Assembly (NCBI RefSeq): GCF_032930845.1 | Contig: NZ_CP136758.1 | Coordinates: forward strand, 310,001 to 374,000 | Source: Parvularcula sp. LCG005 | Lineage (GTDB): Bacteria > Pseudomonadota > Alphaproteobacteria > Caulobacterales > Parvularculaceae | Length of the DNA stretch: 64,000 nt | Reading direction: 5' to 3' | Part shown: positions 42,315 to 51,171 of the stretch, piece by piece | How positions within the stretch are numbered: position 1 is the stretch's first letter | How the letters are laid out: each line of letters begins with the position of its first letter | Program-made: the position numbers and the translations under genes | Notes under the pieces: model-generated | Database searches by the model: none | Seen by the model: only the letters and a program-made list of their open reading frames with translations | What the model was told of the DNA's origin: nothing

Positions 42315-43378
42315 GCTGCCTCACGGGAGGGTTCTGTCGATACACTGTTCTGCGCTTGGGCGGCCTTCTCAGCGCGACGCTCCGCCCACAGACGGCGGAC
42401 CCAGATAAACGGTTCGCTCAGCGCGTCTTTCAGCGTTTCATGGGGGCGCGGGCGATACACGCCATTGTCGGCCGACAGGCCAAAGACCAGACGCTCATTT
42501 TTCCGGGGGCGGATGTATGTACCGAACAGGATGTCCCAGATGGCGAAAACCTCACCATAATTGCGGTCCCAGTGCCGCTCGGCCCGTGAATGGTGGACCT
42601 GGTGCTGGGCGGGGCTCGAGAAGATCCAGCACAGGGGTTTGGGGTAGCGCAGAAAGACATGACTGTGCCGCAGATGGGTAAAGCTCAGCTGCAGGATGGC
42701 GTAGAAGGCATTCGTACCGAGGATCAGGACCAGATCCATACCGCCAAAGACGGCCGTGCCAAAGACGATGACCGGCCCGGCAAAGAGGGCCATCAGGCTA
42801 CTCTCGAAAAGGATTTCCACCGGATGGATGCGTGAAGCCGTGAGAGGGGTGAGTGTCGTCGCGCTGTGATGGACCCGGTGGAAGGCCCACAGGGCCTTCA
42901 CTTCATGGCACATGCGGTGGGCCGCATATTCTGCGAGGTCCAGCGCGGCGACCAGCATGATGACGAGAATGACCGCTTCTGTGGTGGAGACGGCATCGGC
43001 AGACGCCAGATCGAAATCGACCCCGGTCCAGGTGGCGATGATCGCCGCGGAGACGATCGCGAGGGCCGACATGGAGAACAGGCCGACGACCTCAAGTCCC
43101 TTGTTCAGCGCGAACATCTTCACATCGACAAGCGCCGAGCGGCGGCGCCAAAGCTTTATCGGGATAAGAAAGGCGATGAGGCCGCGAAGGCCTTTCCGTG
43201 CTGCCAATGGCCGAACGCCAATGCCATAGGCAAAGAGGGCGGCAAGCAGGCCGGCGACCAGATAGGGCCACCAATAGCGGCCATGGGCAATCGCCTCGCC
43301 CTGGCGCGCGAACCAGACGCCTGCTGCGAAACTGTCGAGGCCGAGAAATCGGCCAATTGCGTCGAAAAACCCGTCCAT
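42311..43378 (-). CDS. Sterol desaturase / fatty acid hydroxylase superfamily protein
   Basis: A 355-aa di-iron membrane enzyme. The histidine clusters are intact: H-x3-H in 'HRMCH', H-x2-HH in 'HRVHH', and the third H-x2-HH in 'HQVHH', with a further His in 'FTHLRHSH'. About five membrane helices surround them. The superfamily hydroxylates or desaturates sterols, carotenoids, fatty acids or ornithine lipids. Coupling to an acyltransferase gene (4-base overlap) suggests modification of a membrane lipid. First gene of the pair; divergent from gabT. Confidence 0.9.
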   Translation of the reverse strand: MDGFFDAIGRFLGLDSFAAGVWFARQGEAIAHGRYWWPYLVAGLLAALFAYGIGVRPLAARKGLRGLIAFLIPIKLWRRRSALVDVKMFALNKGLEVVGLFSMSALAIVSAAIIATWTGVDFDLASADAVSTTEAVILVIMLVAALDLAEYAAHRMCHEVKALWAFHRVHHSATTLTPLTASRIHPVEILFESSLMALFAGPVIVFGTAVFGGMDLVLILGTNAFYAILQLSFTHLRHSHVFLRYPKPLCWIFSSPAQHQVHHSRAERHWDRNYGEVFAIWDILFGTYIRPRKNERLVFGLSADNGVYRPRPHETLKDALSEPFIWVRRLWAERRAEKAAQAQNSVSTEPSREAA

Positions 43379-46419: not shown

Positions 46420-46893
46420 ATGACTGACAAACGCGAAATCTATCGTCAGACCACGCAGGAAATTCTCGCTGTGCTGGAGGGGGAGACCAACCTCACCGCG
46501 CGGATGGCGACGGTATCATGCCTGTTGGCCCATGCCTTTCCTGACAACATCTGGACCGGGTTCTATTTGGTCGATCCGGAGAAAGAGCGGGAGCTTGTGG
46601 TCGGGCCCTATCAGGGCACGCTGGGTTGCCTGCGCATTCCGTTCGACCGCGGCGTCTGCGGCGCGGCAGCACGGCTTGAAGAAACGCAGGTCGTGAAGGA
46701 TGTGCACGAGTTCGAAGGCCACATTGCCTGTGACAGCCGGTCTGTCAGCGAAATTGTGCTGCCTGTCTATGGGGCAGACGGCAAACTGTTCGCGGTGCTT
46801 GATATCGACAATCCCGAAGCGGGAACATTTGACGAGGTTGATCGCGAAGCGCTTGAGGCGCTGATCGCCAAGGTCTTTCCGCACGCAATGTAA
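46420..46893 (+). CDS. msrC: GAF-domain free methionine-(R)-sulfoxide reductase
   Basis: A 157-aa GAF protein that reduces free Met-R-sulfoxide. All three catalytic-type cysteines are present: Cys in 'GTLGCLRIPFDRG', Cys in 'GVCGAAARL' and Cys in 'HIACDSRSVSE'. 'NLTARMATVSCLLAHAFP' and 'WTGFYLVDP' are family marks. GGAGG lies 5-9 bases before ATG 46420. It follows the GNAT gene and ends at an operator that overlaps its stop codon (46889-46906). Confidence 0.92.
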   Translation: MTDKREIYRQTTQEILAVLEGETNLTARMATVSCLLAHAFPDNIWTGFYLVDPEKERELVVGPYQGTLGCLRIPFDRGVCGAAARLEETQVVKDVHEFEGHIACDSRSVSEIVLPVYGADGKLFAVLDIDNPEAGTFDEVDREALEALIAKVFPHAM

Positions 46894-46929
46894 AGCAAGC
46901 TTGACATTCGCGGTGGTAGCATCTATATC
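46889..46929 (+). promoter_or_regulatory. Promoter and operator of the membrane protein/XRE repressor operon
   Basis: TTGACA (46901-46906) and TATATC (46924-46929) are 17 bases apart. The -35 box is part of TGTAAAG-caag-CTTGACA (46889-46906), an imperfect inverted repeat nearly identical to one at 50286-50303. It overlaps the preceding stop codon. It is the likely autoregulatory site of the XRE protein encoded in this operon. Confidence 0.72.
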
Positions 46930-46952: not shown

Positions 46953-47333
46953 ATGTTCAATACCCGCCGATATCTGATTGATCTTTTTTCCGGACTGGCG
47001 ATTTATGCCGTGCTGCTGTTCGGCTCGATCTGGACGCTGCAGCGGACGTCATTTCCCGCAGCGCTTCAGGTCGTGATTGCCATCATTCCCATGCTTGGTG
47101 CGCTTGCCGTCACGGCCGCGGTTCTGAAACACTGGCGACAGATGGATGAGATGATGCGGCGCATACAAATTGAAGCCTTTGCAGTGGCTGCAATCATTGT
47201 CGCGCTGGGCAGTTTTACGCTGGGGTTTCTTGAAAATGCCGGGTTTGAGCGTGTGTCAATGATCTGGATTTTCCCCGCCCAGATTGGCCTATGGGGGCTT
47301 GTGGCGCCCATTATCGGTAGGCGGTACAGTTGA
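46953..47333 (+). CDS. Four-helix membrane protein paired with XRE regulator
   Basis: A 126-aa membrane protein with four predicted helices and a short basic loop ('KHWRQMDEMMRRIQIEA') between helices 2 and 3. 'MDEMMRRIQIEAFA' is typical of small membrane proteins that are regularly encoded just before a 65-aa XRE regulator; the function is unknown, possibly sensing or sequestering the regulator. AAGGAG lies about 9 bases before the ATG. Its stop overlaps the regulator's TTG start (TTGA). Confidence 0.82.
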   Translation: MFNTRRYLIDLFSGLAIYAVLLFGSIWTLQRTSFPAALQVVIAIIPMLGALAVTAAVLKHWRQMDEMMRRIQIEAFAVAAIIVALGSFTLGFLENAGFERVSMIWIFPAQIGLWGLVAPIIGRRYS

Positions 47334-47527
47334 ACAACAGCCTCAAAGAATGGCGCACCGAACGGGGCCTGTCACAGCAGGCCCTGGCCGATGCGCTGGG
47401 CGTATCGCGGCAGACGGTCATCTCCATTGAGAAGGGCCGCTATGACCCGTCGCTGCCGCTGGCCTTCGCGATTGCGCGGGTCTTTGGCTGTCAGATCGAG
47501 GATCTGTTTGTCCCTGACGATCAGTGA
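47330..47527 (+). CDS. Small XRE-family helix-turn-helix repressor, TTG start
   Basis: A 65-aa protein that is almost entirely an HTH: 'LKEWRTERGLSQQALADALGVSRQTVISIEKGRYDPSLPLAFAIA' region (residues about 5-49) and a C-terminal 'IEDLFVPDD'. This is the short XRE class usually paired with a membrane protein. It starts at TTG in a TTGA overlap with the membrane protein's stop. It probably binds TGTAAAG-N4-CTTKACA sites at 46889-46906 and 50286-50303. The transposon inverted repeat begins 2 bases after its stop codon, so the coding sequence is intact. Confidence 0.9.
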   Translation: MNNSLKEWRTERGLSQQALADALGVSRQTVISIEKGRYDPSLPLAFAIARVFGCQIEDLFVPDDQ

Positions 47528-47528
47528 T

Positions 47529-47565
47529 TGTAAAGGCTACTGGACATTGTGTACTTTGCAAACGA
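47529..47565 (+). repeat. Left terminal inverted repeat
   Basis: Begins TGTAAAGGCTACTGGACATT and ends CTTTGCAAACGA. Compared with the reverse complement of the right repeat, it differs at GCTA/TAGC (four positions) and three single bases. Confidence 0.82.
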
Positions 47566-47604
47566 ACCTGACAGGGGCGGTCTAGGGCTAGTTTTGCCGT
47601 CAGT

Positions 47605-47811
47605 TCACTTCTTTGGGGGATTCGATCCGGGTCCAGTCTTGGGCCTGTCCTTTTCGGCGGCCTCTTTGATCTCAGCGTCAGTCTTTGGTGGCGCTTTCGC
47701 TATGCGCTTCATGGCGCGGTCAAAGGCTTCCTCGGACTCGTCGCACTCAAGTTCGCGTGCGGCTTCTGAAAAGCGATCAGCCTGTTTTTTTTGTGACATT
47801 TTTACCGTCAT
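47605..47811 (-). CDS. Small charged protein of the transposon passenger cassette
   Basis: About 68 aa, Lys/Glu/Asp-rich, with a short helical core ('ADRFSEAARELECDESEEAFDRAMKRIA') and a Pro/Lys tail. I have seen similar small proteins near PIN genes but know no function. Starts at ATG 47811 or 47799, both inside the 3' end of the PIN gene (overlap 23-35 bases, frame +1). An A8 run lies in the overlap, so ribosomal or transcriptional slippage could also join it to the PIN protein. Confidence 0.6.
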   Translation of the reverse strand: MTVKMSQKKQADRFSEAARELECDESEEAFDRAMKRIAKAPPKTDAEIKEAAEKDRPKTGPGSNPPKK

Positions 47812-48325
47812 GCGATCCCTCAAACAAGGTTCCGGCATTTGGATCAGGTGGAGATGGCGGCTCGCAAATTTTCAGCAACTCTCCGTCAGGCTTCTCTATT
47901 TGACCGTCTAGTCTTATAAGATCACTGCCGTCGAAGGTATGCAGTTCATCAAGGCTGTAGATCAACGCTGTAGCTAAATGAACTGCATCCTGTGGCTTTT
48001 TGAGCACCGGGTATCTACGCAACAAGCGCCTTGCAGCTACGCCGACATCTCTATCAACCTGAACCTGCGTTACAAATGGCTGCTCAATAAAATCTTCGAA
48101 GTTTGCATCATTGCTAGCGCTTATGCCTGTTTCTTGAGTGCCGGGGATGCACCTTTTTTTAAAAACTTCCGCGAGAGTAAATGATGAAGTCCAGATCTGG
48201 ACCTCGTTACGCTGAGCCCGCTGCAACACGTACCGGCAAGCATCGTCACGGCCCGCCTCCTGGTTGATGAGGGCAATCCACATGCACGCGTCCCAATAGT
48301 ATTCAGGAATATCAGCCAAGCTCAC
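47777..48325 (-). CDS. PIN-domain ribonuclease-like protein (transposon passenger)
   Basis: A 182-aa PIN-fold protein. The acidic active site is complete: Asp12 ('YWDACMWIAL'), Glu53 ('FTLAEVF'), Asp113 ('KPQDAVHLATA') and Asp132 ('TFDGSD'). Most bacterial PIN proteins are toxin RNases of VapBC-type modules, but no VapB-like antitoxin (AbrB, RHH, Phd) is adjacent. The start GTG 48325 overlaps the upstream gene by 14 bases; TTG 48319 has better spacing to AGAGG. The C-terminal 40 residues extend beyond the normal PIN fold. Located between an unknown 284-aa protein and a small charged protein. Confidence 0.85.
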   Translation of the reverse strand: MSLADIPEYYWDACMWIALINQEAGRDDACRYVLQRAQRNEVQIWTSSFTLAEVFKKRCIPGTQETGISASNDANFEDFIEQPFVTQVQVDRDVGVAARRLLRRYPVLKKPQDAVHLATALIYSLDELHTFDGSDLIRLDGQIEKPDGELLKICEPPSPPDPNAGTLFEGSHDGKNVTKKTG

Positions 48326-49166
48326 CCTCTCGGAGTTTATCTAAATAGTCCAATATATCTTGGCCGCCGGTGAAATCCTTGTCTGTAATTTCACCAATAC
48401 TCATTCGACGAGGAGCTACGTGAGATATTGCTGTCGCAAATACTTTCTTGATCTTTCCGTTTGCTGCAAATTGAATCTCACCTCGAACCCTAACTCTTTT
48501 TTGCTTCCAAATATCGTCAATGGAAAGAGAATTGCTAAATTCATCCATCAGGGCTTCGCGAACTCTACACCAGACTGGCTCCCTGCTTTTTCGCTCCAAA
48601 ATTCGGAAAGCAGGATGTCCGCGATCAGCGCCAACCTCGATGAACTCGCCTTCAAGCGACCCGAATTCAACCCGACTACGATCGCCTATTAAGTAATCCG
48701 GGCTAAGAGTGTTATCGTCTAGCCGCCGCAGATAGCCCGTGGCGTTCGATGGAGTGATTACCAAATCGCCGCCGTCGAAATTTAGGAACTCCACGCGAGT
48801 TCTTCCAACCGATTGGCGATTACGCTTAAGCAGTCGAACAGCGACGCGCCGACGCTTTGGGGACCAGCCGTTAATTGCCGAGCGCTCCCACGTTGTGCCA
48901 GAAGTATCAAAGAGACGCCGAGCTTCGGATATGCGTCGGGTAGCCAAACCACGCACTTCGATGTCCGGCCGCAACGACACAGCCTCGGCCTCGACGGTAA
49001 GCGGGCTGTTCGTAGATGCTGCCGTTAAATTCCATGCCAACGTTTCAGAGTCAGATTCCTCACTCAGAAGCTCGAACAAGTCCTTCACTTGTTCGAGGGC
49101 GTCCCGCACATCCAGAACATCGGGATGCGCAGCAGGAGCCTCGATAGTCATTTTAACCTTGGCCAT
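48312..49166 (-). CDS. Unknown 284-aa protein upstream of PIN gene (possible antitoxin or partner)
   Basis: A soluble, charged protein without signal or membrane segment. The N-terminal half (to about 150) includes 'WNLTAASTNSPLTVEAEAVS' and an Arg-rich stretch 'WSPKRRRVAVRLLKRNRQSVG'. The C-terminal half (about 165-265) reads like an OB-type beta barrel: 'FGSLEGEFIEVG', 'HPAFRILERKSREPVWCRV', 'KRVRVRGEIQFAANGKIKKVFA'. I do not recognise a named family. It is translated first and overlaps the PIN start by 14 bases, the usual place of an antitoxin. Lower GC than host genes suggests transfer from another lineage. Confidence 0.75.
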   Translation of the reverse strand: MAKVKMTIEAPAAHPDVLDVRDALEQVKDLFELLSEESDSETLAWNLTAASTNSPLTVEAEAVSLRPDIEVRGLATRRISEARRLFDTSGTTWERSAINGWSPKRRRVAVRLLKRNRQSVGRTRVEFLNFDGGDLVITPSNATGYLRRLDDNTLSPDYLIGDRSRVEFGSLEGEFIEVGADRGHPAFRILERKSREPVWCRVREALMDEFSNSLSIDDIWKQKRVRVRGEIQFAANGKIKKVFATAISHVAPRRMSIGEITDKDFTGGQDILDYLDKLREGELG

Positions 49167-49252
49167 AAAAATCCAACAAAAACAACGACGTATATGGAGT
49201 TTACTGTTTTACTGACTATCGGTAAAGCGTTCGTTGACAGCTTCCGGCTCAA

Positions 49253-50188
49253 TTAACAAGCTGATCGATACGTCAGCCGCTTGCCGGCGATACCCGTTAG
49301 CGCGGCTTCCGTCCGTTCCCCATCGTTGACGCCCTTTGCAGAGCGGAGGTTATAGCGGAAGTCGAACTCTGCCAGATAGCGGTGCAGGTGCTTCTTGGCG
49401 CAATGTTGGTAAGTGCCCTTCATGCCGCGCTTGAAGACGCTGAAATAATTCTCGACGTGGTTTGTTGTGACCGTAGGGTCATCCTTGCGGACATACTCAT
49501 CGGCAGAGTGGTTGACGCTCTCGTGACCAGCAAAGCCTGTGGCAATGCGCTTGAAGCGTGGAGCCTCGTCGGTGACGATACGAGCCTCCTTGGCAATGTT
49601 GGCGTCCACAATCGGCTTGATGGTCGTGACTTTCAGGTCATCAATAACGCTGCTGCGGGCAATGCCTGTTTCGCGGTCCAGCAACGTCAGGACTTTCATC
49701 TTCTGCACGTAGTTGCGGCTGCGGACGTCCTGATTGGCCTCTGGATCGGTGCCGATGAAAGTCTCATCGACCTGTACGTCGCCACCATTGCCGCCGAAAG
49801 GTGCCAGCTCACCCGCGCGCATAGCCTCGCGGATACGGTGGGCAAGAAACCAAGCCGTCTTGTAGGTGACTTCAAGAATGCGATGCAGCTGATGGGCGCT
49901 GACGCCCTTCTTGCTGGCGCACATCAGATAGACAGCCTGTAGAGCCTTATGGAGAGGAATGCGCATGTGCTCGAACACGGTGCCAACTTTGACCGTGAAC
50001 TGACGACGGCAGTCATTGCAGCGGTGCAGGCCGTGGCGCACACGCTTTTCAGGATTTGCCGCGATCTTCTTGATTTTTCCCGTGCAGCCACAATGTGGGC
50101 AGACAGGCTCATCGCCCCAGACAATGCCTTCAAGGTATTCAAAGGCAGCGGCTTCATCATGAAAGAACGGTTTGGACAGAATAGACAT
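49253..50188 (-). CDS. IS1595-family (ISXO2-like) transposase
   Basis: A 311-aa transposase that appears complete. An N-terminal zinc ribbon ('CPHCG' and 'HRCNDCRRQF', residues about 31-64) is followed by the ISXO2-like catalytic domain: 'VQVDETFIG' (first Asp), 'RIVTDEAPRF' (second Asp) and 'TTNHVENYFSVFKRGMKGTY' (Asn/His-Val-Glu). 'FDFRYNLRSAKGVNDGERTEAAL' closes the domain as usual. It lies 42 bases from the right inverted repeat. The catalytic residues look intact, so the element may still be mobile. Confidence 0.95.
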   Translation of the reverse strand: MSILSKPFFHDEAAAFEYLEGIVWGDEPVCPHCGCTGKIKKIAANPEKRVRHGLHRCNDCRRQFTVKVGTVFEHMRIPLHKALQAVYLMCASKKGVSAHQLHRILEVTYKTAWFLAHRIREAMRAGELAPFGGNGGDVQVDETFIGTDPEANQDVRSRNYVQKMKVLTLLDRETGIARSSVIDDLKVTTIKPIVDANIAKEARIVTDEAPRFKRIATGFAGHESVNHSADEYVRKDDPTVTTNHVENYFSVFKRGMKGTYQHCAKKHLHRYLAEFDFRYNLRSAKGVNDGERTEAALTGIAGKRLTYRSAC

Positions 50189-50229
50189 CGGCTTGATCCT
50201 CTCAAGCCATTATGTAGACCTTCGGATCA

Positions 50230-50266
50230 TCGTTTGCAAGGTATATAATGTCCAGGCTACTTTACA
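50230..50266 (-). repeat. Right terminal inverted repeat
   Basis: Read on the minus strand it begins TGTAAAGTAGCCTGGACATT and ends CCTTGCAAACGA. Its outermost six bases on the plus strand (TTTACA, 50261-50266) form a -35 box for the downstream hydrolase gene. Confidence 0.82.
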
Positions 50267-50303
50267 TTTCAAAATTCCCGCCTTATGTAAAGTGAGCTTT
50301 ACA
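50261..50303 (+). promoter_or_regulatory. Hybrid promoter and XRE operator before the alpha/beta hydrolase gene
   Basis: TTTACA (50261-50266, end of the transposon) and TATGTA (50284-50289) are 17 bases apart. The -10 overlaps the inverted repeat TGTAAAG-tgag-CTTTACA (50286-50303), which matches the site at 46889-46906 in 15 of 18 positions. AAGGAG at 50306-50311 is the ribosome site. Confidence 0.65.
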
Positions 50304-50319: not shown

Positions 50320-51171
50320 ATGTTGATCGAGATTGTCATGGCGGCGCTGATGTCTGCTGCCGTACCGGAAGACAACCAGCCCCCAGCAATGGAAGTGACC
50401 GTGTCGGGAGAAGGCGCGCCCGTACTTCTCATTCCCGGGCTGGCCAGTGGCGCCGACGTGTGGGCGGAGACGGCCGACCGTCTTGATGATCAGTATGAGG
50501 TGCACATTGTGCATTTCGCGGGTTTTGCTGGCCTGCCGCCTGTGGAGGGGCCCTTTCTGGAGACGCGCCTTGCGGCGCTGACCAATTATCTGGCGGCGGA
50601 GGAATTGGATGGCGTGACGGTCATCGGGCACAGTCTGGGTGGCTTCATGGCAACGGAACTGGCGCTTACCGCCCCGGCGCGTGTTGAGAAGGTGGTGTCC
50701 GTCGACAGCCTGCCATTTGCGGGGCTCCTTTTCCTCGGTGCACCAACCGAGGAGGCCGCACGGCCCGCGGCGGCCCAGTTCGCGGAACAGTTGCTGGCGA
50801 TGGATGACGCGACCTATGCCGCGCAAGCCAAGATGACCGCGGCGTCCTATACGATGAAAGAGAGCCGCCAGGCCCAGATCGTCTCCAGTACCTTGGCGTC
50901 AGATCGCGCGACGGTGGCCGCAGCCATGCAGGTCCTGATGACCACGGATCTGCGAGACGACCTGCCTCGTCTCGACGCTGAATTGCTGATCATCTATCCT
51001 TGGGCCGAAGGCGGACCATACACGGCGGACCAGACCGATGCTTTTTACCGCGCGCAGTTCTCGGGCGCGCCGCGTCTTTCGGCGCAGCGGATCGACAATG
51101 CCCGGCATTTCGTCATGTATGATCAGCCTGAGGCGTTTTTCAAAGCTCTGGAAAGTTTCCTCGCCCCATAG
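50320..51171 (+). CDS. Alpha/beta hydrolase
   Basis: A 283-aa hydrolase with a short, weak signal-like N-terminus ('IEIVMAALMSAAV'), so possibly exported. The nucleophile elbow is G-H-S-L-G in 'VTVIGHSLGGFMATEL' (Ser about residue 110), the acid is likely in 'LLIIYPWAEGG', and the histidine in 'DNARHFVMYDQPEAF'. Substrate unknown. The ATG has AAGGAG 9 bases upstream. Without the transposon it would follow the XRE repressor gene directly, and it keeps a copy of the same operator. Confidence 0.88.
   Translation: MLIEIVMAALMSAAVPEDNQPPAMEVTVSGEGAPVLLIPGLASGADVWAETADRLDDQYEVHIVHFAGFAGLPPVEGPFLETRLAALTNYLAAEELDGVTVIGHSLGGFMATELALTAPARVEKVVSVDSLPFAGLLFLGAPTEEAARPAAAQFAEQLLAMDDATYAAQAKMTAASYTMKESRQAQIVSSTLASDRATVAAAMQVLMTTDLRDDLPRLDAELLIIYPWAEGGPYTADQTDAFYRAQFSGAPRLSAQRIDNARHFVMYDQPEAFFKALESFLAP

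Follow-up and report, generated by a model that had tools for sequence, protein, structure and literature searches.

A probable toxin-antitoxin-like PIN pair as cargo of an IS1595-family transposon in Parvularcula sp. LCG005

Why would a small transposon with a single transposase carry a nuclease gene? The question is raised by a locus of Parvularcula sp. LCG005 in a 64,000-nt stretch of contig NZ_CP136758.1 (positions 310,001 to 374,000; hereafter the window), where an IS1595-family transposase is accompanied by genes for a protein of 284 amino acids (aa), here called A, a PIN-domain protein and a small charged protein. We consider it likely that this is an IS1595 transposon with a type II toxin-antitoxin (TA)-like pair, A and PIN, as cargo, through which cells come to depend on keeping it.

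The complete transposon with its cargo spans 47542..50253 of the window on the minus strand (2712 bp). Its ends are 24-bp terminal inverted repeats (TIRs) at 47542..47565 (left, plus strand) and 50230..50253 (right, minus strand), GGACATTGTGTACTTTGCAAACGA and GGACATTATATACCTTGCAAACGA, which agree at 21/24 positions and start with GGACATT. They are bordered by a perfect 8-bp repeat, AGGCTACT, at 47534..47541 and 50254..50261, and it is as a target-site duplication that this repeat sets the limits of the element; a third copy of the 8-mer lies within the 64-kb window at 42795. When the flanks are joined with one copy of the duplication, the virtual empty site reads TGTAAAG-GCTA-CTTTACA, a palindrome with 7-nt arms (TGTAAAGGCTACTTTACA). 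Its left part (47529..47541, plus strand, remainder at 50262-50266), as delimited by the virtual empty site and a genome scan, is not transposon DNA. A first-pass annotation had described 37-bp repeats around a mobile unit of 2.7 kb rather than a 1-kb insertion sequence (IS). The unit size holds, with ends and duplication outside the cargo. The repeats exist (30/37, 81%) and enclose the transposase and three open reading frames (ORFs), but the true ends lie 13 bp further in, since the duplication and the restored palindrome mark the outer 13 bases as target DNA. The proposed search for an empty site, carried out twice, found none among nine congeners, and the virtual one is therefore given instead. 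The nearest homologues of the neighbour genes in these congeners are ~29-36% identical, and where adjacent they stand in a different order.

The transposase (311 aa, 49253..50188, minus strand) consists of a zinc ribbon and a DDE domain (PF12762 7e-33, PF12760 4e-12) and matches NF033547 (1e-57) with 195.6 bits vs a cut-off of 75, so the annotated IS1595 type stands. The IS1595 traits are all present: the DDE_Tnp_IS1595 domain, the N-terminal zinc ribbon, the 8-bp duplication and ends starting with GG. In excerpts of the literature, the ribbon marks IS1595 groups other than IS1016 (PMC8101967), 8 bp is the usual duplication, and GG at the ends is recorded for Merlin and ISApl4 (both PMC8101967, PMC12561309). 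The transposase has one match in the host genome. No recombinase or resolvase match was found in the other three ORFs of the element (Pfam, NCBIfam).

The order on the minus strand is transposase, A (48312..49166), PIN (182 aa, 47777..48325) and small charged ORF (77 aa, 47605..47838). A gap of 86 nt separates transposase and A; by the listed starts, A and PIN overlap by 14 nt and PIN and the small ORF by 62 nt. These head-to-tail overlaps are as first described, and so is the AT-richness of the cargo (GC content 51.3% for A and 49.0% for PIN, with 56.0% for the transposase, vs 60.5/58.2% in the 5-kb flanks).

PIN, the putative toxin, matches PF01850 (3e-8). Over all 57 rows of its alignment, D12 is kept in 55 (two gaps), E53 in 56, D113 in 57 and D132 in 50 (E in six), and we take these four to be the catalytic acids. 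(The alignments A7 and A8 leave out 7/53 relatives' A proteins and 16/56 PIN proteins, respectively; residue counts here and below cover all rows.) Its AF2 model (pLDDT 90.4) is VapC-like, matching VapC20 and many VapBC toxins; the sequence link to a solved VapC is weak, with one hit at 4e-4. PIN is probably a VapC-type RNase toxin.

Protein A, the putative antitoxin, has no match above cut-off in Pfam and none in NCBIfam or PADLOC. Among 47 A proteins searched against Pfam, no family was matched in more than two (best E 0.002), and none was of the RHH, AbrB or Phd/YefM type. The AF2 model (pLDDT 89.4, pTM 0.59) comprises an N-terminal alpha/beta domain, an OB-like barrel at ~165-249, which is a five-strand stretch with a helix following the third strand, and a C-terminal helix (271-279). 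The tail has the consensus FTGGLxxEYLxxLR, with G268 kept in 44, Y274 in 40 and R279 in 48 of all 54 rows. In VapB and FitA, an arginine of the antitoxin enters the active site of the toxin. Scans with A alone found nothing, and none of 60 genomes related to that of the host gave a match to A; in the class sample, it was matched in 6/384 other genomes. A defines a putative antitoxin family that has no classification so far and is represented in contigs from several phyla. An imperfect inverted repeat (13/16) surrounds the start of A at 49142-49157 and 49206-49221, and could be an operator, a hairpin or chance.

With Foldseek, the A model hits lysyl-tRNA synthetases best among PDB entries (E 1.2e-4, TM ~0.23, rmsd 8-19, partial overlap), and the match may reflect their anticodon-binding OB fold. 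This bears on a rival explanation, that A is an RNA-binding subunit guiding PIN to a particular RNA, the two forming a two-subunit ribonuclease with no antitoxin. A barrel resembling an anticodon-binding domain would suit such a role, as would the joint divergence of A and PIN described below. However, the overlaps are partial, at a TM of ~0.2 and an rmsd of 8-19, and the C-terminal helix, which is conserved and ends immediately ahead of the PIN start, looks like an antitoxin tail. We hold the RNA-guide explanation to be quite improbable.

The small charged protein is a transposon-associated ORF, as its profile matches occur in IS1595 loci with and without A-PIN. Among the 29 IS1595 loci sampled, 14 gave a match to it, and 12 of these lack the pair (12/27; one match is weak, E 2e-3). 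Since it accompanies IS1595 transposases lacking the pair, the cargo proper is the two-gene A-PIN pair. The three-gene PIN cassette that had been annotated is rejected on this ground, its PIN module remaining as cargo.

Is the same cargo found between IS1595 ends elsewhere, as the first-pass annotation suggested to check? Genome contigs were scanned with the PIN alignment, giving 64 loci, in which A and the transposase were located by profile searches. A is directly upstream of PIN in 60/64; of the four loci without A, L095 and L099 start at a contig edge. In 24 loci, five of them from one metagenome-assembled genome (MAG), a whole or partial IS1595 transposase in the same orientation precedes A by no more than 800 nt; this fraction (24/64) may be biased upward because three of the five sequences from which the PIN patterns of the scan were built adjoined a transposase. 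In one further locus, the transposase is 1.8 kb upstream with a methyltransferase between. The order that recurs in these relatives is transposase, A, PIN, often with the small protein last. The spacing between the transposase and A domain matches is 39-48 nt in 11/24 loci, and the two genes overlap in G340.

Ends were counted when TIRs agreed at 16/22 or more and the duplication at 7-8/8; a looser setting (16/22 and 6/8) gave a second-ranked chance match in L040. By this count, 17 of 28 distinct loci tested, the window included, have ends and duplication, 14 of the 17 with 8/8. A repeat of the end search on 25 named loci found 14/25 in real DNA vs 0/25 with shuffled downstream DNA. In the other 11/28 (L041, L042, L044, L055, L059, L068, L081, L084, L097, L098, L100), ends with duplication were not found, in L044 despite its closeness to pMOC1. 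In L011, which represents the same locus as L042, there are inverted repeats (20/24) but no convincing duplication.

All four genes recur in unchanged order on plasmid pMOC1 of Methylobacterium oryzae (identity 39% for A, 57% for PIN), where the ends enclosing them are flanked by a perfect duplication, AATCGGAA. Paracoccus, Lentibacter and Bradyrhizobium (duplication 7/8) are among the further carriers of A-PIN between IS1595 ends. In G340, transposase, A, PIN, small protein and an inverted N6/N4 DNA methyltransferase are inside one end pair (duplication 7/8), and the order in G357 is transposase, methyltransferase, A, PIN. Hosts include Xanthobacteraceae, Rhodobacteraceae, Methylobacterium, Bradyrhizobium, Paracoccus and Lentibacter, with diverged pairs in Acidobacteriales; host names need caution because many records are MAGs. 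A DNA methyltransferase is extra cargo in the A-PIN elements of L042/L011, L012 and L046-L050. Beside transposase-less A-PIN pairs, lone IS1595-type ends were seen in L075 (1114), L076 (6820) and L015 (4431), possibly from decayed elements.

Does the unit move as a whole? One MAG of an uncultured member of the Rhodobacteraceae (records CATOSB01...) has copies at five sites, each with a different 8-bp duplication. Over 2931 bp, three copies are identical, one has a single difference and the fifth is interrupted. Thus, the whole unit, including A and PIN, moved recently. In this element, a methyltransferase is reduced to a short fragment between transposase and A. The claim that the nuclease module moves with its transposase is borne out by the duplications around the whole unit and by the identical copies at different sites. 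Pairs standing without a transposase, the finding set beforehand as speaking against that claim, are common (36/60), and the passenger reading survives them because those same duplications and copies show movement. Chance neighbourhood, in which an IS1595 element happened to land next to a PIN operon that has nothing to do with it, has nothing found in its favour, and is rejected as having virtually no probability given ends and duplication outside the pair, 17 such elements (shuffle 0/25) and the five MAG copies.

Distances were compared by Mantel tests and trees over 17 elements with long transposase matches. A and PIN distances correlate strongly (Spearman 0.89; reached by 0/1000 permutations), showing at the sequence level that A and PIN diverge as one unit. 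The correlation of transposase with A is 0.27 (118/2000 permutations), and −0.09 (1445/2000) without two acidobacterial rows. In L053, the transposase clusters with the Lentibacter and Paracoccus enzymes, while the pair clusters with those of L042/L046, loci whose own transposases are only remotely related; L056 and L074 have transposases of one clade and pairs of separate clades. Approximately unbiased (AU) tests, for which the groups were chosen with the trees already known, reject each of the shared-clade alternatives in both directions (p 0.0017, 1.2e-36, 7.6e-5 and 3.2e-6). From the conflict of transposase and pair trees it follows that IS1595 lineages have exchanged the A-PIN module.

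The exchange bears on another rival, that A-PIN belongs to the transposition machinery, for example as a regulator of transposase expression. That the pair directly follows the transposase in the same orientation, at 39-48 nt in 11/24 loci, would suit this. However, the transposase and the pair have conflicting histories, 36/60 pairs have no transposase nearby, and most IS1595 loci do without the pair. A transposase match was found in 70 of 289 genomes including that of the window, and of 29 sampled IS1595 loci in other genomes, 27 show no A-PIN within flanks of 1.5 kb; G340 is among the two that do. We regard a machinery role as very unlikely.

In 8 of the 29 loci, ends with an 8/8 duplication were found within these flanks (shuffles 0/145), with 883-1411 nt behind the transposase and no bare IS among them. 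Other genes occur behind IS1595 transposases. In L106 (395-1482), a DUF433 protein and then a PIN_10 protein, a second and unrelated PIN pair, stand between transposase and small protein; in L124 (848-1309), a SocA/Panacea antitoxin-family protein does; and in L132, an N6 methylase follows the transposase. Proteins of ~175-250 aa with an R-x4-H motif, which resembles that of HEPN nucleases and suggests HEPN-like cargo, were picked by eye among genes behind transposases in seven loci (L112, L115, L116, L117, L123, L125, L133); those of L112, L115, L117 and L125 gave nothing above cut-off in Pfam. Ends were found for three of the seven (L112, L115, L125) and for none of L106, L124 and L132. A wider reading is that IS1595 has a standing cargo slot behind its transposase, with interchangeable, mostly nuclease modules that are swapped between lineages and make transposition addictive, an independently evolved counterpart of the Tn3-TA arrangement. 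Besides A-PIN, which would bring in a new family of OB-fold antitoxins, the modules would be DUF433/PIN_10 pairs, SocA/Panacea antitoxins, HEPN-like proteins and DNA methyltransferases. This is an extrapolation, because ends were found at few of the loci with other cargo, and we hold it somewhat less probable than its opposite.

For the pair itself, an addiction-type reading fits best. PIN would act as an RNase toxin, and A as antitoxin would bind it via the conserved C-terminal helix, whose arginine may enter the PIN active site as in VapB/FitA. A and PIN would be read from the transposase transcript, so that a cell receiving and then losing the element would be poisoned. Poisoning on loss would help the element, or the replicon that bears it, to persist, as in the ‘take me or die’ model put forward for Tn3 transposons, and the pair would be a passenger, dispensable for transposition as such. 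Toxicity and neutralisation are inferred, as is co-expression with the transposase, the latter from the common strand and short gaps.

Several observations count against this. First, 27/29 sampled loci lack the pair. Conversely, no transposase was seen within 800 nt of 36/60 pairs (for four of the 36, the upstream sequence is too short to tell), and A-PIN therefore also occurs independently. Among 357 plasmid records with a transposase relative, one has a tblastn match to A. Second, A has no recognised DNA-binding domain, usual VapB antitoxins are much smaller, and the FTGG part of the tail is missing in 4/53 relatives' A rows (L091, L093, L094, L096). Third, a promoter scan found three sites vs 2.2 expected, about what chance would give, and no site in the gap that separates transposase and A. 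The 3′ end of the transposase gene has a weak terminator-like site (49278-49259; six found vs 3.1 expected). The choice of AU groups after the fact weighs on the same side.

TA pairs can also act in abortive infection. A-PIN might thus be an anti-phage module spread by the transposon, in which infection disturbs A and frees PIN, the benefit being host protection. Methyltransferases in the same elements (G357, G340) and a phage-like contig carrying A-PIN would agree with this, but PADLOC models match none of the four proteins of the element. The anti-phage role is unlikely in our judgement, while the addiction-type reading remains the best fit.

The insertion site has features of its own. A second palindrome, TGTAAAG-TGAG-CTTTACA (TGTAAAGTGAGCTTTACA), lies 19 nt past the restored one, just upstream of a hydrolase gene at 50320. 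In a genome scan at no more than one mismatch, the pattern occurs at three places, two of them flanking the transposon locus (control 0), and the insertion therefore probably split one of two tandem operator-like sites. Sites of the form TGTAAAG-N4-CTTTACA/CTTGACA were seen at 46889-46906, upstream of a membrane protein/XRE pair, at 50286-50303, upstream of the alpha/beta hydrolase, and at genome 530548-530565, near a second hydrolase-like ORF. The three may form a small regulon of an XRE regulator; that the XRE-type regulator at 47330-47527 binds them is a guess.

How does the element compare with known systems? It is like VapBC in having a PIN toxin with four conserved acids, an overlapping partner gene directly upstream and a VapC-like predicted fold, and unlike it in its partner protein, whose 284 aa include an OB-like barrel and none of the known DNA-binding domains of antitoxins. 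According to excerpts of Lima-Mendez et al. 2020 (PMC7157771), Tn3-family transposons have TA pairs near the transposition genes in 39/190 cases, from about ten acquisition events, with antitoxin DNA-binding types RHH, AbrB and Phd/YefM, and the pairs are proposed to be tied to transposition. As far as these excerpts show, the present element shares with them a PIN-toxin pair at a set place beside a transposition gene that is exchanged between transposons; unlike them, it has an IS1595 transposase, no resolvase among its ORFs, the pair behind the transposase, and A rather than an RHH, Phd or AbrB protein as partner. It resembles tIS (PMC7986276, likewise in excerpt) as a single-transposase element with A, PIN and a small ORF inside one end pair, and differs in its passenger, a nuclease pair that recurs and has passed from one IS lineage to another. 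The parts of the literature surveyed, which include PMC7157771, PMC12548467, PMC7371123, PMC3281130, PMC8101967, PMC12561309 and PMC7986276 and lie outside the 2009 IS1595 review (Siguier et al.), hold no description of A-PIN or of a TA pair in IS1595.

By analogy, the present case is the Tn3-TA kind of arrangement in an unrelated single-transposase family and with a new partner protein. For the Tn3 family, the Discussion of PMC7157771 raises the question whether it is the transposon that benefits from TA genes or just the plasmid that carries it. A small single-transposase element with such a pair directly behind its transposase, with five copies in one genome and exchange between lineages, is a simpler system for that question.

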